Source: Allomyces arbusculus
Lineage: Eukaryota; Blastocladiomycota; Blastocladiomycetes; Blastocladiales; Blastocladiaceae
NCBI GenBank assembly: GCA_027604705.1
Contig: JADHYV010000153.1
Location: 1-20,620 of the forward strand
DNA length: 20,620 nucleotides
Reading direction: 5' to 3'
Position 1 is the first letter of the stretch. Every line of letters starts with the position of its first letter. Positions 294 to 20,620 of this stretch are shown piece after piece. The position numbers and the translations under genes are program-made. The notes beneath the pieces are model-generated. The model was given only the letters and a program-made list of their open reading frames with translations. It did not search any database and had not been told where the DNA came from.

Positions 294-400
294 CCCATAG
301 AGCCCTTCCAAATTGTCACCACCTTTACGGAAAATACGTCAGTCACCGACGAACATCCCGCTGGGCGCGGGCGCCGAAGCCAAGGGCTCGACGTCGCGGT
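294..400 (+). pseudogene. Decayed fragment of an EXLX1-like expansin gene (exon 3 part)
   Basis: This stretch matches the start of the third exon of the intact expansin gene at 3566-3702. In one frame it reads PFQIVTTFTENTSVTD, which aligns without gaps to PFTVVTQLSDGSTITD of the intact protein (6 of 16 identical, most others conservative). The match then continues one frame away as IPLGAGAEAKGSTS against VPLRSGAEVQGSAS. The frame change comes from about two missing bases near 349-352, where the intact gene has a TAC codon. At DNA level 359-399 matches 3662-3702 at 32 of 41 positions. No proline/glutamine-rich tail follows, and the upstream exons would fall mostly left of the window, so only this piece can be seen. 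It encodes part of the second (CBM63-like) domain. I read it as a dead duplicate. Confidence 0.72.
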
Positions 401-1052
401 TTCTCGCGTGCAGTTATGCATTTGCTCGATGGGCAAGATGCTCATTGCAGCACCGACTGACATGCCATGAGATCATTGTACATTCAATACAAGAGGATCT
501 ATTGATGTGTCTCTTGCTTCTATTTGAATTGCTCTTCAGGGCTCGAGCTGATTTTGGCCGGAACTTGATGCGAATGGATTGAACGAGTGACAGCCGCACT
601 GATCCGCGAATCAAAGGATGAACACGCCCACTTCCAACGCGCCCACTTCTCGAATAAAACGAACGGCACATACTTCCGCCGGATAACAACCTGGGATTTA
701 CGTATGTTGGCCCGGACTTTGCCTCAACCGGAGCGTGCGCATTGCCCGTGCACCGCATGCATGCCGGCAGACATTGGCAGCCCCCTTCCGCCACCCGCGC
801 CGCACATCAATGCCGCGGAACCAACGGGCGCGCGATGCCCATCCCGAAGTCCCAATTGCTTTTCCTCCTGCTTAGGAACAAGCGAATGACGGTACCTCCA
901 CCCACCCACGCCCATTCTCGGCAACAAAACCCGATCCCCTCGCGTGGCGCGCCCACTGTCCACCACCTTGCACCAGTCGGCGGCCGCAACTGCACCATGC
1001 ACAGCATAGCGATCGCGCACCGCTCACCAATGGAGATGGAGGCGACGGGCAT
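401..1052. other. Intergenic stretch, no gene supported
   Basis: Only short overlapping open frames are present, with no family motif, no convincing start context and no TATA box. I looked here for the missing first two exons of the decayed expansin copy at 1783-1907 (secretion signal, CGVCIR and GDLDVT motifs) and did not find them. Confidence 0.5.
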
Positions 1053-1640
1053 TTGGGGCACGAAGGCGGCCAAGACGCTGGCGCACCCGCTCCACAGGTC
1101 GAACCTTCACCCGCTTCACCCCGACCTGCACCTGCACCCCGACCTGCTCGCGCTGTCCAAGATCGTGATTCTGCTCGCGACGCATGCAGCGCAGCAGCGT
1201 GTCGTGACGTGCCCCGTTCCGGTCGCGCATTTGCCACTGCATCCAGCTTGAGCGCCGCATCTTCCATCATGAGCGCTATGCCGCCGACCGAACCGGCTCC
1301 GGGATTGCGCCGCTCAAGTCATCTCCAAGCACGCGGCGCCGTGGCGCCACTGCCGACAAATCCAACCGCGACACGGCCGAGCACGACACAGAAACGTGAG
1401 CACTCTCCTACAGATCAAGGATCGCGTGTGACTGCGCCGCCGCGTCCAAGCAAGAGCACGGCACCGCGCGAGTCTTCGCTGCCACGCGCAAGCTCGAGTT
1501 CGACACCACGCGCGAGCTCGGACACGACACCACGGGCCAGGCGCGGCACAAGTCGCGCGCGACCGAGTCGTGGCACTCAAGGGCGGCGAGGTACCGAGGA
1601 CGCAGATCCCATGGATGTGGACGACAAGCCGGTCGGCTGA
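1053..1640 (+). CDS. Possible disordered Ser/Pro/Arg-rich protein (doubtful)
   Basis: This is an open frame of 195 codons from an ATG. The predicted protein is almost entirely Pro, Ser, Thr, Arg and Ala, with imperfect repeats of the type TPRASS and TPRARRGTSRARPSRG, and it ends in an acidic tail DADPMDVDDKPVG. Such DPMDVD-like acidic tails occur in real fungal proteins, which is the main point in favour. Against it: codon third positions are less GC-rich than in the confident genes nearby, there is no TATA box or strong start context, long frames are open on the other strand too, and no domain is visible. A shorter version could start at the ATG at 1269. No function can be given; low-complexity non-coding DNA is an equal possibility. 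Confidence 0.3.
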   Translation: MGHEGGQDAGAPAPQVEPSPASPRPAPAPRPARAVQDRDSARDACSAAACRDVPRSGRAFATASSLSAASSIMSAMPPTEPAPGLRRSSHLQARGAVAPLPTNPTATRPSTTQKREHSPTDQGSRVTAPPRPSKSTAPRESSLPRASSSSTPRASSDTTPRARRGTSRARPSRGTQGRRGTEDADPMDVDDKPVG

Positions 1641-1782
1641 TTTGGGGTTGTCGGTGTCTTTCGCTCCTTCCTTTTCTTCATCTTTTTGACCTTGATGGTC
1701 GCTTTGCCTGCTGCTTGCTCTAATGAGAGGAGGCGGAAGCGCGAGGTGAGTGTAGCTCCAGTCACATATCAGGGGTCGATAC

Positions 1783-1907
1783 GTTTCAATTGCTGGATTT
1801 TGGTTCGGGGAATACATACGGACGGTTCGTTCAATTACCAAACGATTACCGACTATAATATCCCGCTGCACGCGGGGGCCGAGGTGCTGGGGTCGCGGTC
1901 GCAGTAA
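1783..1907 (+). pseudogene. Second decayed EXLX1-like expansin fragment (exon 3 part)
   Basis: The predicted peptide TITDYNIPLHAGAEVLGSRSQ closely follows TITDYNVPLRSGAEVQGSASQ of the intact expansin (residues 219-239). At DNA level 1864-1904 matches 3662-3702 at 33 of 41 positions. Upstream, the match DFGSGNTYGRFVQLPND (against DSGFGSGPFTVVTQLSD) is in another frame, so at least one frameshift separates the halves. A splice acceptor-like CAG at 1770-1772 sits a little upstream, preceded by a donor-like GTGAGT at 1746-1751. A stop at 1905-1907 follows directly after the conserved core, so the Pro-rich tail of the intact gene is absent. The first two exons are not visible upstream. I interpret this as a relic of a tandem copy; a short live exon in an unknown gene is much less likely. 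Confidence 0.75.
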
Positions 1908-2743
1908 CACTGGTCGGTTTGGATGCCCATCAGCCCAACGTGCTTGCAGGCGTCGCGCCACGGCGCAGAGAGCGGAAAGACAAGGTGGAGAAGGAACATA
2001 TCAATTGAGAAAGCCAAAATATACACTTGATTTCCGCACTGATCGCAGTTGGACAGTTTGGGTCTGGTGGGAGATGAAGAAATGAATTACATCGCATCCT
2101 CGCGACTCGCGACGGGAGACAAGGGATAAACCACATCATTCAGCGTCATTCGCGCATGACCGATGTTGTGAACAAGTTTCCGCCGCCTAACTCCACCACT
2201 CCAACACATCGCAGCCATCGCAGCCCGTATCGCGCAGTGCTGTTGCGCCTGACCGCGTACCACCGTCTGCAAGGATGTTGTGCAAGGCACCAGAAAGAGG
2301 CACCAGAAACCTGTTAACCCAGCTCAACACTCTCGTTTCCACCAGACTCCGCTCCCGTCCACGCCGTCGTGGTTGCTGAGCACCAGCTGGCGCGCAGCGC
2401 CTCAAACGAACAAGTTCACGACAATTGTTCCAAGTTTCGACACAACAGCACGGACACGACAAATGCATTTTCGTTGTTGCAATGACGAAGATGCGAGGCG
2501 ACGACGGGCGCCCCGCCGTCCTGAACTTGGTCGTGTTCATGACCGTCCGGCGCCAGTTTGCTGCCCGGGAATTCCAATGCACGGCTAGGGGATTTCCTGC
2601 TTCCTCGTCCACCGCCACCGCCAAAGCATCTCACGCGCAAGCTCTGATCGACCATCGTCGCCACCCGTTTCCATGCATCAATCGACAACACGCCGTGCGA
2701 GGGGACAATGGACACGCGTGTGGAGACGATCCCGACGCCGCTA
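1908..2743. other. Upstream region of the expansin gene, no gene supported
   Basis: This interval lies between the second expansin relic and the TATA box of the intact gene. Open frames exist on both strands (for example on the minus strand across 2187-2624), but they overlap one another, show no family motif and have no start context. It probably holds the expansin promoter. Confidence 0.5.
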
Positions 2744-2752
2744 GATATAAAA
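2744..2752 (+). promoter_or_regulatory. TATA box of the expansin gene
   Basis: GATATAAAA lies about 70 bases before the ATG at 2822, which leaves a leader of roughly 40 bases if transcription starts about 30 bases downstream. The leader is pyrimidine-rich and the start context is CACCACGATGG. Confidence 0.75.
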
Positions 2753-2821
2753 GACGGCCCGACCCGCCCGCCGCCGGGCTCGCCACCATAGACTGCGACT
2801 CTCCCTCCCTGTACCACCACG

Positions 2822-4020
2822 ATGGCCGCCGTCCGCTCCGCCCACGCGCTGCTCTTTGCCGTGCTACTCCTGCTCGGCCTCTCTGCCGCCGAGGCGCGCC
2901 CGCAGCTCGCCAAGCGCCACACGTCGACCTACAACTACCTGCAGAATGGTGTGGGCAAGATGACGTTCTGGACCGAGAGCGGCGACTCGAACGGCCAGTG
3001 CCTGCTCGACCCGCCGGCCAACCAGATGGCCGTTGCGCTCGCGACTGACGGTCTCGACAACTTTGGCAAGGTAATCGCACCGTACCCGGATTCGATGTTT
3101 GATGCGTGTCCGCCACATTCACGCGAAAACTGACGCGTTTTACCGTGCATAGAATCTCGCGTCGATGTGCGGTGTCTGCATCCGCATCCACAACGGCGAC
3201 AAGTCGGTCGTCGCGCACGTTATCAACAAGCTGCCCGACGCCGACCGCGGTCCAGGCGATCTCGACGTGACGGGCCCCGTCTGGCGCGCACTCACGACGA
3301 TTCCGCCGGGTCAGCTCTTCGACATCAAGTGGGAGGTCGTTGACTGCCCCGACGTGTCGGGCCCGCTCGTCTACAAGTGGAAGGACGGCTCGTCGCAGTA
3401 CTGGGCTGGGATTGAGATTCGCAACCACAAGAAGCCCGTTGTGAGCGTCTCGGTGAACGGCATCAAGGCGCCGCGCAAGATGTGTACGTGGCGTTTTCTC
3501 CGCCTGGCCGTCCTGACCCCGCGCTGATCGCGTTTGCTGACCCGGTCGTGCTCCCCTCCTGTCAGTCAACTACTTCGTCTCCGACTCAGGGTTCGGTTCG
3601 GGCCCATTTACTGTCGTCACCCAGCTCAGCGACGGATCGACGATTACCGACTACAACGTGCCGCTCCGCTCGGGCGCCGAGGTCCAGGGGTCGGCGTCGC
3701 AGGGTGCTGGGTCGTCGCAGCCGCAGCCGCAGCCGCAGCCGCAGCCGCGGCCGCAGCCCACGGCCGGTCCCGCGCCCGCTCCGACGAGCGGTGCTCCTGC
3801 TCCGGCGCCGACGGGTGGTAGCCCGGCCCCCGCGCCGACTGGTGGCGCTCCCGCTCCCGCGCCGACGGGCGGTGCCCCTGGCCCTGCCCCGACGGGTGGT
3901 GCTCCTCAGCCGGCGCCGACGGCCGCGCCCACGAGCACGCCAACGCTCACGCACCTGCCCGGTGGCGTGTGCAAGCTGCGCACCACGTCGACGGTCACGG
4001 TCACAGTCACGGTGGCGTAG
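2822..4020 (+). CDS. Secreted EXLX1-type expansin with Pro-rich tail
   Basis: Expansins loosen cellulose-containing walls without hydrolysis; this one should be secreted. Proposed exons are 2822-3070, 3153-3483 and 3566-4020 (344 aa), with introns of 82 nt each, donors GTAATC and GTACGT, and a CTGAC branch-like motif in both. Residues 1-25 form a signal peptide, followed by a Kex2-like KR at 31-32. Domain 1 (about 33-145) is a double-psi beta barrel with MCGVCI and GDLDVT; D121 corresponds to the essential Asp of bacterial EXLX1. Domain 2 (about 150-235) is CBM63-like: KDGSSQYWAGIEIRNHKKPV matches the EXLX1 segment EGSSRWWAAIQVRNHKYPV, so the cellulose-binding aromatic pair becomes Y166/W167, and F194 sits near the third aromatic position. 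F194 is encoded across the second splice junction. Residues 245-258 are Gln-Pro repeats, then about five 10-residue APAPTGGA-type repeats, then an STVTVTVTVA end. No clear GPI signal. Family assignment is firm; the exact target wall is unknown. Confidence 0.9.
3718..3759 (+). repeat. CAGCCG tandem repeat encoding Gln-Pro
   Basis: About seven hexamer units, mostly CAGCCG with one CGGCCG interruption, encode the QPQPQP stretch at residues 244-258 of the expansin. Being hexameric, changes in copy number keep the frame, so the linker length may vary between strains. Confidence 0.85.
3760..3921 (+). repeat. 30-nt coding repeat, APAPTGGA-type linker
   Basis: About five imperfect 30-base units encode GAPAPAPTG-like decapeptides at residues 260-312 of the expansin. 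Pro/Thr-rich linkers of this type are commonly O-glycosylated in secreted fungal proteins; that role here is inferred. Confidence 0.8.
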
Positions 4021-9191: not shown

Positions 9192-12100
9192 TTACCAACG
9201 GCGCTGGAGGTGCTTCTTGGCCGCGGCCTCGGCCGCCATTCGGTAGAGCACGTCGAGCTCGCCCGACTCAGCACACATGTGGTAGAACGCGCCATCGCCC
9301 CGCTGCAGCAACTCGAGCGGCGCGCCCTCCTCGATCACACGGCCGTGATCCAATACGACCACACGATCAAAGTCGATGATCGTCTTGGTGCGGTGCGCAA
9401 TACACAGCAGCGTTGCCTGGCCAAACTCGGGCGACTCGCGAATCGTCGCCTGGATTTTCGCGTCTGACTGGCCATCAATCGACGCGGTCGCCTCGTCGAG
9501 GACAATAATCTTGGACCCGCGCAGCAACGCGCGCGCAATCATGAGCAGCTGCCGCTGCCCGACCGACAACGATGACGCGTTCTCCTGCACCTCCATGTCG
9601 AGCGTGAGCGGCGTCGTGCCACACTGTACGCGGTCGAGCGCACGCTGCACGACCTCGTCCGAGAACTCGTCAAAGATATCGAGGTTCGACCGCACCGTGC
9701 CCTTGAAGCAGACCGGTTCCTGCGGAATAATCGTCAACCGCGACCGCAAGTCAGCAAGCGCGATTTGGCCAATGTCGACGCCGTCAATCACGATCCGGCC
9801 GGCCTCGCACGCGAGGAACCGGAACAGCGCCAGCGTGAGGGAACTCTTGCCGGCGCCCGTCCGGCCGAGAATCGCGGTCCGCTCACCGGGGCGCACCGTG
9901 ATCGTCACGTCCTGCAGGATCGGCGGCAGGTCGCGGCGGTACCGGCACGACACGTTCTGGAACTCAATTTGCCCGTGCTGCGGCCAGTTGTGCGGGACCG
10001 GCAGAAGCTCGGCGGGTTCATCGGCCTGCTCAATGACGGGCGCCGCGGGCGCCTCGATATCAGTGGCCGCCGCTGCGGGCTGTTCGGGCTGCGCGACCAT
10101 GGCCGAGACCTGCACGAGTTCCTGGACCTCGGGCGTGTGCTTCAACCGTGCTCCCGGCTCGTGCGGCAGGTGCAGGTACTCGCCGATTCGCTCGACGGCG
10201 TTGAGATTGATTTCGAGCATCGACCATCCGCGAATCAGCCACACGACGGAACTCGAGAAGATGAGCGCGTACGAGAGCGTGAACCCGGCAAGACCGCCGT
10301 CGAGCCGGTCGAGCGACATCAAGATGGCAAGCCCCGTGCACAGAATGACGAGCGAGTCGGCAAAGCCCGTGCGCTGCGACATCCACCGGTTCAGACCGAT
10401 CTGGGCGTAGAGCATGCGGAACGTGTTGTCGGCACGGCGCCAGAGCACCTTGACGAACCGGTCTTCGGAGCGGTACGCGCGAATCGCAGACGCACCGGCA
10501 ATCGACTCTTGGAAGTGCGAGAAGAGGGGCGATTGGTGGGTCGACATGACACGCTTAATTTCACGGGTCGAGATCAGATAGTAGTTGGCAATTGACCTAT
10601 TGATGAAAAGTCGGGGCAAGGTGAGCTGATACTTTGAGAGCGATTGCCTGGGAGTCAGGTAGAGAACAACGGACCAGTAGAGGTAGAACAGGAACGGGAT
10701 CGCGATGAGGAACGGCGGCACGACAAACCCGACGAGGGCAATCTCCATGAACATGCCGACGCCCGAGCGCACAAAGGCGGCAAGCGACATCATGATACCG
10801 TTGTCGATCGAGCCCTGCGAGGTGGAAAGAGCGTCAGTCCACATCTTTTGACCCTCGACGATGCAATATCAGCGCGTACCATATCCGCCGAGAATCGGTT
10901 GGTGATGCGGCCGTTGGGCGTCGCATCGTACCACGACACGGGTGCGCGCAACACACTCACAAGCAGCCCGTCGTGCATCGTGCGCGAAGCCGTCATCGAC
11001 CCGTGGAATCGGAAGTAGCTGGTAGCAAACTGGACGAGCACCGAGACGAGGCCAATGACCGAGTAGATCGACAAATAAAAGTTGACGTCCACGACATTCT
11101 CGAGCACCTCCACAAACGCGGCCACCGCCGACGCGGCCATGGCCGCAAACGCCGTGATACCCGACACATCCGCGTCATCGTCGTTGACCGCGGGCGTCAG
11201 CGAGTACTGCTTGGCCCAGACACGCAGCCAGTTATCAGACCCCATTTGCAGCAGGTACGTGAGCACGGTCAGCGACAGGAAAGTCGTCCAGAACGGCCAC
11301 CCGCCCGACGCGACGAAGTAGAGCTTGTAGACGGCAAAGTCGACACTGCCATTGCGCTTAGCCTCGACCGTGTTGGCGGCCGTCCCTCGCTTGTCCGCGA
11401 TCTGAGCCTTTTTCGGTGCAGTCGAATTGGCCGCGGACCCTTCCGTGGACGCCGTCATGGACGTGGTCTCGTCCTCGGGCACGGCGTTGAACAGCTTGGC
11501 CTCCTCCGAGTCGCCGAGTTGCTCGAGCACCGACGCGCGGTCACCTTGCGCGACAATACGACCATCGCGCACGACCACGATGAAATCAGCCTTGGCCGCC
11601 GCGAGCGCGACCGAGTGGCTGATCAAGATGCGCGTGTGCCCGTCAAGCAAGCCCGTAATACTCTCATCAAACACCTTGCGCGCCGTGGGCGCGTCAAGCG
11701 CCGAGAGCACGTCGTCAAACAGGTACACGTCGGCGCCCGAGTAGGTCGCGCGCGCCAAGTTGAGTCGCTGCTTTTGCCCACCACTGAGAACAATCCCGCG
11801 TTCACCGACCTGCGTCTTGTCGCCGCCGGCCAGGACCTCGAGGTCGCGGGCGAGCGCACAGGCTTCAATCACTTGCGCGTACCAGTCCTCGTCGTAGGGC
11901 GCGTTGAACGTAATGTTGTTGCGAATCGTCGCGTTCATGAGCCACGGGTTCTGCGAGACGTAGGCGACGCCTTCCGTCGGCATGTGCACTTGGCCTGACT
12001 CGCGGTGCATTTCGCCGAGAAGACCGTGCAGCAGCGACGACTTGCCCGACGCCGTGAGACCCACAATCAGCGACAGCTTGCCCGGCGGGAAAGTCACGTT

Positions 12101-14446
12101 CAGATCGCGCAAGTAGAAGGGTTCGCGCGCGGCGAGCGTCGAGGCAGCGAGCGTCGAGGCGGCGCCCGATGACGGCGCAGCAGAACGGGCTTGGCCAGCG
12201 GCGAGGGTGTTGTCGGCATTGTTCGAGTCGGGCTCGACGTCCCACGAGAGCGTCGCGTTCGTGAACCCAACTTGCGCGTGGTCAATGACCTTGGGCTTGC
12301 CGGCGCCGATGGTCTTAGGGAGCTCGGCCGATGAGTCACGGAACGTGCCGTAAGCCGACGACGCGGCCGACGCGGCAGCAAGTGTCTGGTCCGACTCGGG
12401 CGTGGTGATGGCCGTGCGCACAGGGGCAGGCACCGTCTTACCATGCCCAATCGACTCGAGAATCTGGTCGCGGAGCGGGTGCTCGATGAAGTAGTCGAGA
12501 TCGACATTGTCGTCAAGGAATGCCTTGATACGGCGGTACGACACACGCACTTCAAAGAACTGCGTGATGCGGAACGCCAAGTCGTCGACGGGACCCGAAA
12601 GCGCGCGGAACAGAGCAATCGCCGTGAAGCAGAGCGTCGCATCGAGTTCGCCACCCTGCAGCTTCGAGAACGACAGGAACGTGACGAGCGAGACGATGAT
12701 CAAACTCGACGTGTACATGGCATTGGTCACGGCCTGGATCAAGAAGTACTTGCGCAGCCGCTGCAACTCAGTAGCGCGCGACGCCTCGACACGCTCGTGG
12801 AACTTCTCCTCCCACGCCATGAACTTGATCATGCGCATCGACACGAGCATCTCGTTGATGCGCGCCATGCGCTGGTCAGATGCCTCCATGACGGCCCGCT
12901 GCAGCGTGTACATTTGCTTGGTGAGCCACGACTGTACGGGCACGAGCGTGAGCAGCACGGCAATCCCGACAAAAGCCGACCACCCGAGCACCATGTAGAG
13001 CGAGACAACCGAGATCACGACGCGCAGCGGCGTTGTCAGCAGACTGTCGCACCAGCAGAGCCAAATGTGCACACGGCCCGCGTCGGTCGAGAACAAATTG
13101 GAAATCTTGCCCGCCGCCGATGAGGCCTTGCGCGTCAAGACCTTCAAGTAGAGCTCAGTGATGAGCACCCCGCGTGCGCGGAACCCAGCACGCGTGCCGC
13201 AAAAGGCGCCGCGCGACTCGAACAGGTTGTTGATGTTGGTGAACAGGAACATGGAAAAGACGAGCACATAACCCTCGATCATGGTCGTCTCGTCGGTGCG
13301 GTGCTCAATGTACGAGACTAGAGCAATATAAAGGCAGTGCGGTCAGCGACGAATCACACAGGAATGTTGCGGCTGTCACGAAGACCATACCAATCTTGTT
13401 CAAGAAGAAGGGCCCCGTGAACGACAGGAACGCCGCGATAATGCCGCAAATGACCTGTGTGACCACGAGCGGAGCAATCGTGAGCCCGAGCGAGGCGCCA
13501 AACGACCAGCCCTTGTCGCGGTAGTCCTGAAACTTGCTCCACGAGCTAACGACGGAATTCGGTCAGCAGTCGAATTGGCATGTGACGAGAGAGATGGCGT
13601 CAACGCACGTCTGGGCACGGTCATCCTTGATCAGCTCCCACACGTCCGGGTCTTCAATGTGCTTCTTAGTACCACGACGCAGCAGCGGGTTGAGCCAGCT
13701 GTAGGTGACCCACCGCGAGAACCACGACGCCTGGCCCTCCAGCGACGGCAAGTACTCGCCTGGACCCGCAAAACGCGAGTCAAAATACTCTTCGAAGCGG
13801 TTCAGGATCATGTGCGCCTCCCAGACGGAGAGAAGCGCGAGAAGCGCGACATTGGCCGCCCACAGGTACCAGACCAGTCCGGTCCCCGGGTTGAGAGCGC
13901 ACACGATAAAGGCCAGCAGAAAGACGGGCAGCGTGTATACGTGCGAGTCGACGTTGGCCGTGCCAAGCGTAAACGCAAAGACGGCAACCTGATGGCGCGG
14001 GAGCGAGGAAGGAAGGGGCCATGAGGTAAGCAACCCGTTCGACTGATTCACGGAAATCAAAAGAGGAAAAGGGGGATCAGGGAAAGGAGAGCAGCATGCG
14101 CACGTACCCAGACGGCCGTCTGCACAATCAGCAAATCGCTTGCGGCTGTCCACGCCAGCAGCTGCAGCCATTCCACGGCGAGCAGAGCGACCGCCGCGGT
14201 AATGAGCGCGATCTTGGTCCAGCGCACCCATGCCGAGTCGGTCGGGTAGTCGCCAGCAAATTGCACGTCAATGGGCTCGAGGTTGTTGGCGTCGTCGGCG
14301 ATGGGCGTGTAGCCGTTGCGCTTTTGGTAGCGAGTGCGCAAGTAAAGAGGGATAGCAATGGCCAAATAGACGGCGGGCAACGTAGTGCCGACGAGTCTGG
14401 CGACAGATTGGAGCGGCGCAGTCAGGTCACGATCAGCGACGGGCAT
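9192..14446 (-). CDS. ABCC/MRP-type full-length ABC transporter
   Basis: ATP-driven exporter of the ABCC subfamily (MRP/Ybt1/Yor1 relatives), which usually move conjugates, organic anions or drugs across the plasma or vacuolar membrane. Proposed exons: 14446-14108, 13988-13609, 13545-13391, 13317-10880, 10814-10675 and 10596-9192 (1,618 aa). Introns are 119, 63, 73, 65 and 78 nt with donors GTACGT, GTGCGT, GTATGG, GTACGC and GTCCGT; the last is in frame and less certain. Order: N-terminal membrane segments typical of long ABCC proteins, first membrane domain, NBD1, linker, second membrane domain, NBD2. NBD1 has Walker A GLTASGKSS (711-719), LSGGQ (802-806), Walker B VYLFDD (822-827) and His859. 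NBD2 has GRTGAGKSS (1395-1403), Gln1443, LSVGQ (1494-1498), IIVLDE (1514-1519) and His1552. NBD1 has Asp where NBD2 has catalytic Glu, the usual ABCC asymmetry. The start is the first ATG in frame, at 14446. Substrate cannot be told from sequence. Confidence 0.94.
10597..10674 (-). other. Probable in-frame 78-nt intron in the ABC transporter
   Basis: The frame stays open through this segment, so it could be read as 26 extra residues. Removing it joins ...FLFYLYW to SIANYYLISTREIKR and restores the length seen in other ABCC proteins at this membrane helix (compare [22 protein letters not shown] of human MRP1). It begins GTCCGT, ends ATAG, and its size fits the other introns of the gene. The donor is weak, and the only clear CTGAC lies far from the acceptor. 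A shorter intron, 10632-10597 (36 nt, donor GTATCA), is an alternative but leaves extra residues. Confidence 0.62.
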
Positions 14447-17544: not shown

Positions 17545-19526
17545 TCACGCCCGGGCGTTTTTGTTGACCTTGTCCCAAATCTCCGGCAGGCGCTCGCCAC
17601 AGTTGAAGCGGTCGCGCACCTTGTCGTAGAGCTCGTGGTCGAACATCTCGCGGAACTCGCCGCGAGACATCATCGTGTCAGCGTAGAGAGCTTGGTAGCC
17701 TTGAACGCCGCGCACAAACTTTTCGATCACCTGCAAACTGCGCTCATGATGGAATTTCAACGACTTTGGCACGCCGTAGGCTCCAATGTCGCAATAACAC
17801 TGCTCTGCCGGGTGCGGGGGAGTGAGCGATCCGGCGGGCGTGGTCACTTCTTGCGGCGGGTAGGCCGACTCGTCCGAGTTCAACACCGCGACCGCAGGCA
17901 CTTCACCGCGCTCAGCGAGCAAGTTCTTGGGCGGCGAGAGCATGCGCATCGGGCAAAGCCAGAGCGGGTAGACCTCGAGCTCGTCGTGGAACAAGTCGAG
18001 CGACTCCTTGAGCGTCGAAATCGGCACGAGCAAGTCCTGCGCGGCGTGCTTGGTCTCCCAGAGCACCTTGAGCTTGCCTGTCGTGGTCATCTTCAAAATC
18101 GAGATCTTGGGCGTGCCGATCCACGCGATAAAGTACCGGTACCACCACGAGTTGCCCGAGGGCACAATGTCCTGGATTTCCCAGAAGATTGACCGCGTGT
18201 GCCGGTGGTAGTAGTCGCGCAGCGGCAGGTACTCGATGGCGTGCGGCGTGCCGGCAGGGCGCTTCAGGAACGAGGCGACGTGCGTGAAGAACTAATCGAG
18301 GTCAATAATGGTCGTGAGTGCCGACTCTCTCAGCAAAACGCGCAAGCGATCCCTCGACACGTACCCACGGCTTGTACCAGCGCGAGAGCACATTGAGCGT
18401 GGCGCCCTTGGGCACGGTACTCGCGAGCTTGCCGACCATGACGACACCCGTCTCCTTCGAGTACATCAACTCCTCGACAAAATCGTTTTTGTTGTCGCGC
18501 GACGCGCGCTCAAACACCTCGACACACTCCTGCTGCGTGTGGCACGGAATGTACTCGATCTGAACGTAGGGCTTGGCGCGAATCAGCTTGATCTCGGCGG
18601 CGACCAAGAACCCAATCGTTCCGTGCGACCACGGGATCGTCGCAAACAGCTCGGGCTCGTGGTCCTTGTCGCAGTAGACCACATCGCCGTTGGGCAGCAC
18701 AATTTCGAACGCCGTGCACGTGTGCTGGAAGAGGCCGTACTTGTGCGACGACGTCTCGATCCCGAACCCGTTGATCAGGCCGCCGACCGTCAGGTCGTCG
18801 AGTTCCGGCAGGACTTGCAGCGACCAGCCCTTCTTGATGAGCTCGCGCGAGAGACGGCCCATGTTGCAGCTACAGAGCCCCGAAAGTTGCAGCACATGAG
18901 TGTTGGCTCGAATTCGACAAATTTCAAAAAATGCAGACGTACCCGGGCTCGACGCGCACCACTTCGCGCTCCTCGTCAATCTCAATAATATCGCGCAGCG
19001 CGTGCACCTCGACTCCACCCCAGTGCTTCTTGTAGATACCGGCCTTCATCGACATGGCCAGGAACCCGGGCCGCGCCGTGCACAGACGAGTCGCGCCCGC
19101 AGCCACCAACTCGCGGATCTGGCGCTGCACGTTGGCGACGCGCGCAGCGTGAATCTGCTTGCGCAGCGTGGCGTCGCCGACGGGCGGCATTTGCAAGTCA
19201 AACATCCAGTCGCGCAGGGCCTCAACGGCATCCCAGGCAATCGACGCGGGCGCGACAAAGATGGTCGCAAAGATGCCGCGGTTGTAGGTGACAAAGTCGG
19301 CAGCCAGGTCGAGGAAGGGCGCAAGCAGCGGGCCCGTGATACGGCCATTGGCGAGGGCCTTGAGCACGGCGCCGGCCTTGCCGAGCGTCCAAACGGTCGC
19401 ACCAAACAGCGGCGTCGCGAGCGCAAAGAAGGTCTGCACGCCGAGCAGCGCCAGGCCTCGTGGCGACAGCAAAAAGGGTCGCACGTGCGTCGCCACCGGG
19501 CGCGCTTCCTTGGAGAGAGTCCCCAT
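17545..19526 (-). CDS. DHCR24-like delta(24)-sterol reductase (FAD-dependent)
   Basis: Related to animal DHCR24 and plant DIMINUTO/DWF1, membrane-bound FAD enzymes that reduce (or in plants isomerise) the sterol side-chain 24 double bond, normally in the ER. Exons 19526-18943, 18869-18365 and 18291-17545 give 611 aa; both introns are 73 nt with GTACGT donors. The FAD domain has LPELDDLTVGGL (215-226), IETSSHKYGLFQH (232-244) and PWSHGTIGFLVAAEI (274-288), nearly identical to human DHCR24. The C-terminal half keeps LRDYYHRHTRSIFWE, YPLWLCP, CDIGAYG and LYADTMMSRGEFREMFD. Compared with the 516-aa human enzyme it has a longer N-terminus with two hydrophobic segments (about 24-48 and 85-101), and a roughly 25-residue Pro/Thr-rich insertion before CDIGAYG. 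The start at 19526 is the ATG nearest the conserved part; a longer frame upstream is Ser/Arg-rich and looks non-coding. Ergosterol synthesis does not require this step, so the true substrate is open. Confidence 0.94.
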
Positions 19527-20620
19527 CTTGGATTCTTGGAATGGATTGGTGCTGGGCCGGGCGGGGCGGGGGACGTCGCGCGCGCGGGTGCTTGGATCGG
19601 CACAAAGTCGCGGCGGCAGCAAGTGCGAGCGACGGGACTGGCAAATTTGACCGGACGAGCTCGACGAGCTGGACGACAGCGGCGGCGTCGGATCGCAAAG
19701 GCACCAGCGGCGGCGACGGTGAGGACGGCATATGGGTGCGGTGGACCGTTGAGCGTGATTGCGCGTGCATCGAGTGTGGCGTGCCGTGGCGCACTCACCG
19801 CAACAGAAATGTGGTGGTGACTTTGCTCTGATCATCACATTTGCAACAGAGATGCAGAAGGTTGCAACACTCTTGCTGCCATCAAAAGTGTGGACCGTCA
19901 GAAATGGACCTTGCTTTGGCATCATTTTCCTTCAACCATCCAACAACCAGCAGCTGCAAACCATCAACCATCAATGCCAGCGATGAACAAGCAGAACGAC
20001 ACCCAGGAGTGACTGCAACTGGTCTCGATCAGCCATAGAATGGAATTCAAGACAGTCGCCAGCTTGTTTTGGCCGAAATGTGTTCACCAAACAGGGTTGG
20101 CCTTGGTCTTGAATTTTTGCCATTCAATGCATGCTTCCACTCGTCTCCACTCTCCAACTTGTACCAACGCGTGCCTCTCTATATTGCAAGTTGATCCAAT
20201 AGTTCACACTCTCATTGAAGGCGGCCATGCTTTCGCCTGCAACAATGACTAGTCTCTGCTGTTACAGTGGTCACTTGATAGAGCGCGTCTCTCTCCTTCC
20301 CCAACGCGCCTTGTTGACCTGCCCCCTGGCTTTCAACACAGGCCACCGTGTAAACTTTTTCTTGTTACAACGCGCTTTCCGCGCCCCTCCTTTCCAACGT
20401 TGCCCGCCAGCTGGCCGCTCACTTGCTACAACGCGCCTCCTCCACCATGGCTGTCGACCACCCTCCACCATCGTCGACGTGATCCGACGCGACCCCACGC
20501 GATTCGACCGTGCGCACAGCAAGCAGCTGAGTGTGGCCCCGCCGGCACCAGGACGCCGACATCACCAATCCAGCGCCATTTGCGCGCCCAACTGCACGAC
20601 GTGTACAGCAGCTCATTGAG
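19527..20620. other. Upstream region of the sterol reductase, to window edge
   Basis: It contains the reductase leader and promoter; I see no TATA box. A donor-like GGTGAGTGCG on the minus strand at about 19792-19801 could belong to a leader intron, but no acceptor stands out. Four AACGCG motifs lie in 20166-20437. A plus-strand frame is open from 20253 to the edge and ends in a protein-like IQRHLRAQLHDVYSSSL, but it lacks an ATG inside the window; an ATG at 20447 in good context (CCACCATGG) is in another frame and reaches a stop after 11 codons. Confidence 0.45.
20303..20437 (+). promoter_or_regulatory. Repeated TACAACGCGC motifs (MCB-like)
   Basis: CTTGTTACAACGCGCT (20361-20376) and CTTGCTACAACGCGCC (20422-20437) differ at only two of 16 positions and are 61 bases apart. 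A third AACGCGC is at 20303-20309, and AACGCGT at 20166-20172. The core resembles the ACGCGT box bound by fungal MBF cell-cycle factors. They could serve a gene to the right of the window or the sterol reductase about 780 bases or more away. Function is inferred only. Confidence 0.5.

Follow-up and report, generated by a model that had tools for sequence, protein, structure and literature searches.

An EXLX1-type expansin gene and probably old exon-3 relics beside it at a contig end of Allomyces arbusculus

The stretch of DNA analysed here, termed the window, spans contig C153 from end to end (20,620 bases); the Allomyces arbusculus genome to which it belongs is assembled as 25.9 million bases in 197 contigs. 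Expansins are proteins that loosen plant cell walls, and a complete gene of this kind lies on the plus strand of the window at 2822-4020. Two GT-AG introns are required to read it: exon 1 (2822-3070) specifies a hydrophobic N-terminus and, as judged from solved expansins and the NCBIfam EXLX1 family, the start of domain D1; exon 2 (3153-3483) specifies the rest of D1 and the start of D2; and exon 3 (3566-4020) specifies the end of D2 and a Pro-rich repeat tail, read straight from the sequence and closed by TAG at 4018-4020. Codon scores of the first two exons are coding-like (+0.49 and +0.53). Splice models were obtained by a scripted trial of GT and AG sites around the changes of frame; two were free of stops up to the terminal one, giving 344 and 347 amino acids, the longer differing by a later second donor, and the 344-aa model is used throughout. 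Elsewhere in the window, at 9192-13342 and 18302-19045 on the minus strand, are ABC transporter frames and a FAD_binding_4 frame, ABC_membrane and ABC_tran being present in each of the two ABC transporter frames.

Visual inspection of the 344-aa protein shows a hydrophobic N-terminus followed by two expansin domains and the Pro-rich tail. Its description as EXLX1-type in an earlier note, made from this sequence, is borne out by family model NF041144, which matches spliced residues 1-245 at 130.9 bits, above the cut-off of 100, and does so from position 3 to position 191 of its 194, with D1 and D2 both present. PDB entry 9ms5 aligns over residues 45-236 (E 7e-25) and B. subtilis EXLX1 matches at E 4e-19; Pfam gave no expansin domain in the protein at E up to 1. 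Residues important in B. subtilis EXLX1, taken from a portion of PMC5072189, were compared through an alignment to that protein with positions counted by hand. Equivalents of Thr14, Ser16, Asp82, Lys119 and Trp126 are retained; Phe stands at Thr12, Asn at Asp71 and Leu at Tyr73; and among the D2 aromatics Trp125 is replaced by Tyr and Tyr157 by Phe, Trp126 being the one kept. By analogy with its family the product is most likely a secreted, non-enzymatic, cellulose-loosening protein. To call the gene live is a fair prediction in one sense, that of an open, well-formed reading structure.

Part of exon 3, a core at 3601-3702, had been proposed to occur in three places in the window, and this holds: two relics upstream, on the same strand, outscore every DNA and translated control window. 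The stronger, copy 2 (1773-1907), has a secure core at 1818-1907 that ends in TAA; the part ahead of it, 1773-1817, owes its assignment only to its position and to a weak peptide match, whose score is equalled or exceeded in 28 of 1252 control windows. When the segment 1-4300 was compared with itself, copy 2 (1842-1904) matched intact exon 3 (3640-3702) with 81% identity over 63 bp (E 9e-12). The Smith-Waterman score against exon 3, 78, was reached by none of 786 controls, which were overlapping windows of the same genome whose best score ranged from 34.0 to 41.5 by query, and the translated core scores 83, the best of 937 control windows scoring 29. Searched for over the whole genome, copy 2 has a protein E of 0.025 and a DNA E of 1.6e-9.

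Copy 1 (300-399) lies nearer the contig end. Its second half is secure; the score of its first half alone is reached in 16 of 1252 control windows. In the same self-comparison 352-397 matched 3655-3700 (78% over 46 bp, E 3e-5), and copies 1 and 2 matched each other (73% over 49 bp, E 0.015). The Smith-Waterman scores of the copy 1 core, 56.5 against exon 3 and 49.5 against copy 2, were reached by no control (0/786 for either), and its translation scores 50, again with 29 as the best of 937. A translated search of the window with the intact protein, the check proposed in the earlier note, recovered copy 2 (E 8.6e-6) and failed with copy 1, for which a 16-residue in-frame piece gave an E of 0.13; copy 1 was also absent from the matches listed in whole-genome protein and DNA searches. 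Support for copy 1 comes from the DNA level and the empirical controls. The sequence comparisons show homology of both copies with the intact gene, beyond chance.

In both copies coding structure is missing or broken. Copy 1 is read in one frame up to mid-core and in another thereafter; the core of copy 2 is open, with its TAA directly after it, a stop that in alignment falls near the end of the solved bacterial expansins. Beside an intact open gene, the earlier summary "one live, two dead" is a fair one.

Exons 1 and 2 were not detectable ahead of copy 2 by DNA shuffles, tblastn or peptide scores against controls, nor was exon 2 detectable ahead of copy 1 in DNA and peptide searches of the same window. 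Peptides of these exons scored in 1-300, 400-1790 and 1905-2821 at levels that 46 to 339 of 545 control windows reach, the true exons giving 271 and 601 under the same scoring. By the layout of the intact gene, about 180 bases of copy 1's exon 2 would be expected in the window and are absent, and its exon 1 falls beyond the contig end. The claim that only the last copy has all its exons thus stands for copy 2, and for copy 1 as far as exon 2 is concerned, exon 1 being off the contig. DNA before the cores gave no match to the intact exon 2 end, intron 2 or exon 3 start (231 of 1000 shuffles as high for copy 2, 270 of 1000 for copy 1, and 313 of 1000 for the contig C3 stretch described below). 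A candidate exon 2 remnant at 1327-1589 was rejected: its long DNA alignment is equalled in 20 of 300 shuffles, and the best exon 2 peptide score in 400-1790 is reached by 46 of 545 control windows. Seven ORFs at 658-2820 were codon-scored and gave negative values in every frame scored, exons 1 and 2 giving about +0.5; this counters the notion that the relics are exons of another gene.

Flanking DNA is shared in one instance. The segment 105-232, on the plus strand before copy 1, is related to 2161-2294, which is also on the plus strand and precedes the ATG of the intact gene by 528-661 bases; no shuffle of 1000 and no control window of 350 scored as high. Between bases 1-104 and 2060-2161, where a continuation of this flank would be expected, there is a weak match (4 of 1111 controls); against the whole of 1911-2821, bases 1-104 score as 85 of 1000 shuffles do. 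At copy 1 the upstream flank directly precedes the exon-3 piece, which fits deletion of the part between. Searches for such a flank ahead of copy 2 (375 of 1000 shuffles) and downstream of the intact gene (32 of 300 with 1-293 and 297 of 300 with 2100-2320) found none. Given its lack ahead of copy 2, any ends assigned to the unit are tentative, and an alternative is to take 2161-2294 as 3' flank of copy 2. The spacing of about 1.5 and 1.8 kb given for the copies is correct, and the regular tandem unit that the term array implied was not found among them. A dispersed repeat was considered and rejected: at E up to 0.01 the segment 1-2800 matches itself, the end of contig C3 and intact exon 3 only.

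The end of contig C3 bears on the extent of the cluster. Bases 1-84 of the window (plus strand) correspond to the final 84 of C3 in reverse orientation; all but one of these 84 agree, the first 77 without exception. At the other end, the window's last 77 bases (20544-20620) recur unchanged inside contig C18 (305114-305190), the identity being broken by a mismatch directly ahead of them; exactly 77 bases at both ends suggests that the assembly breaks at repeated 77-mers. About 90 bases beyond the common 84-base sequence, C3 carries a candidate exon-3 stretch that is a probable, weaker fourth relic, so called mainly for its place. With copy 2 as query it scores 44 (best control 34, 0/786), and with 233-425 as query 38.5 (best control 37, 0/786); no shuffle of 100 scores as high against copy 2, its translation scores 31 (best control 29, 0/937), and the stretch ahead of its core compares with copy 1 at 9 of 1000 shuffles. 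When copy 3 is the query its score is reached by 264 of 786 controls, and when the copy 1 core is the query by 49 of 786; the pre-core part compares with exon 3 at chance (1150 of 1252 controls). An independent model built from the three copies gives it 12.8 bits, below a 15.3-bit chance match inside C3; a model that itself contains it gives 56 bits. For this stretch chance similarity may still be the explanation. Exons 1 and 2 were not found in the first 1700 and 5000 reversed bases of C3, a region that lies 3' of the relic and so says little on its missing exons, which would fall off the contig. Reversed bases 1166-1701 of the C3 end have diverged copies on C62 (85%, 73%) and C24 (68%). The sequence common to the C3 end and the window start, together with the putative relic, indicates that the cluster runs into the contig end and is truncated there.

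Over the whole genome NF041144 detects one EXLX1-type two-domain gene, the intact gene, such counts being lower bounds; an exon-by-exon search with the same model gave no piece at the cut-off of 100, the best reaching 77.5. At least seven other genomic places, at E below 1e-3, match NF041144 positions 1-104 of 194 only: three on C38 (40898-41281 being treated as one place), two on C63 and one each on C5 and C144, with a further C38 match at E 0.011. The three of the seven that were scanned hold the first domain alone. Those on C38 fall within about 10 kb (40898-51019) and those on C63 within 4 kb (31844-35515); a C38 relative with an internal stop appears, by eye, to be a gene with an intron. 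Further exon-3 cores elsewhere in the genome were sought by protein and DNA sequence searches alone.

How old the relics are can be gauged from their differences from the intact gene. Over 33 codons copy 1 shows 36 differences, distributed 13/7/16 over the codon positions (dN 0.44, dS 0.68, dN/dS about 0.65), and copy 2 shows 12 over 21 codons, distributed 3/3/6 (dN 0.16, dS 0.42), the dN and dS values resting on small samples of 16 to 33 codons. In simulations the observed BLOSUM sum was reached in none of 5000 runs for copy 1 and 10 of 5000 for copy 2. Amino-acid identity was reached in 688 of 5000 (not significant) and 197 of 5000, and the excess of third-position changes in 322 and 776 of 5000 (neither significant), such that two of the three measures of constraint are weak for copy 1. 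At the protein level the differences are conservative, and we take them to reflect divergence while the protein was under constraint, with truncation later. Conservative differences combined with a dS of about 0.4 to 0.7 point to an old duplication, a period as working genes and later loss. The recent copy-number change proposed in the earlier note does not agree with these values, nor with the presence of exon-3 pieces where whole extra copies might be expected; a recent tandem array is rejected on the same dS values and the lack of a common unit.

What is established is that copies 1 and 2 are homologous and that a related flank lies beside copy 1 and the intact gene. The reading we prefer, with a probability of roughly 0.7, is that an old duplication gave rise to diverged paralogues and that all but one complete gene then decayed. 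The locus would once have held several diverged EXLX1-type paralogues, of which one is still complete at 2822-4020, and at least two others, probably with one more at the C3 end, would have been reduced to exon-3 remnants some 70 to 130 bp long. We infer that duplication came first, that the copies then diverged under protein constraint, and that their 5' parts were lost last, probably through deletion or unequal exchange.

An unlikely alternative is that short partial duplications copied the exon-3 end alone, exons 1 and 2 never having stood beside the relics. This would account for the failure to trace either of the first two exons ahead of copy 2, or exon 2 ahead of copy 1, but the protein-like, conservative differences in both relics imply time spent in working genes, and copy 1 is accompanied by upstream flank. 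It is very improbable that the fragments are live terminal exons, either of other transcripts or of tail-less expansin genes with missed first exons, even though the copy 2 core is open, with its stop near where the solved bacterial proteins end, and copy 1's exon 1 would fall off the contig: copy 2 has no exon 1 or 2 upstream, no frame among the seven ORFs at 658-2820 is coding-like, and the frame of copy 1 is broken. Alternative last exons of the intact gene in cis are impossible, since both copies lie 5' of it. Chance similarity in GC-rich DNA, suggested by the 15.3-bit stretch inside C3 and by the tblastn value of copy 1, is hardly tenable for copies 1 and 2 given pairwise scores that no DNA (0/786) or translated (0/937) control window reaches.

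The preferred reading, old duplication followed by decay, may be extended, though quite doubtfully, by supposing that a larger expansin cluster, still undergoing rearrangement, lies in an assembly gap, the relics on C153 and C3 being the two edges of it that can be seen. If so, the 77 exact common bases beside strongly diverged relics would speak for recent exchange or duplication in the DNA flanking dead copies that are themselves old. Compared with the first suggestion, the cluster is of greater age and lower regularity; it is also truncated by the contig end, where pseudogene counts are lower bounds. Events of this kind are ordinary; the gene family is, for a eukaryote, somewhat unusual. 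With an intact expansin and at least two dead ones, the genome documents on a small scale how a wall-loosening function was gained, diverged and was lost. A literature search for fungal expansin pseudogenes gave no paper among the matches listed. According to the part of PMC11040781 used here, EXLX-type expansins are nearly all bacterial, eukaryotes contributing <3% of the EXLX sequences retrieved, and fungal EXLX sequences were too dissimilar for retrieval in that study.

Like the bacterial EXLX1-type expansins (NF041144; B. subtilis EXLX1/YoaJ, PDB 2bh0; 9ms5), the intact protein has the two-domain D1-D2 arrangement; unlike them, its gene has introns and specifies a hydrophobic N-terminus and a long Pro-rich tail. 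Its identity to plasmid-borne EXLX1 members is 27.5-33.9% (8 of 12 matching records), and bacterial genomes scanned with exon 2 yielded no relative. With loosenins and other expansin-related proteins that lack D2, as described in the same part of PMC11040781, it has the D1-type barrel domain in common, but it differs from them in possessing D2. By their matches, the seven D1-only places found elsewhere in the genome, three of them examined, belong with these D2-less proteins. The locus as a whole resembles ordinary pseudogene clusters formed by duplication and loss, with one intact member and truncated, broken-frame neighbours, and differs from them in that each relic here keeps the end of one exon only.
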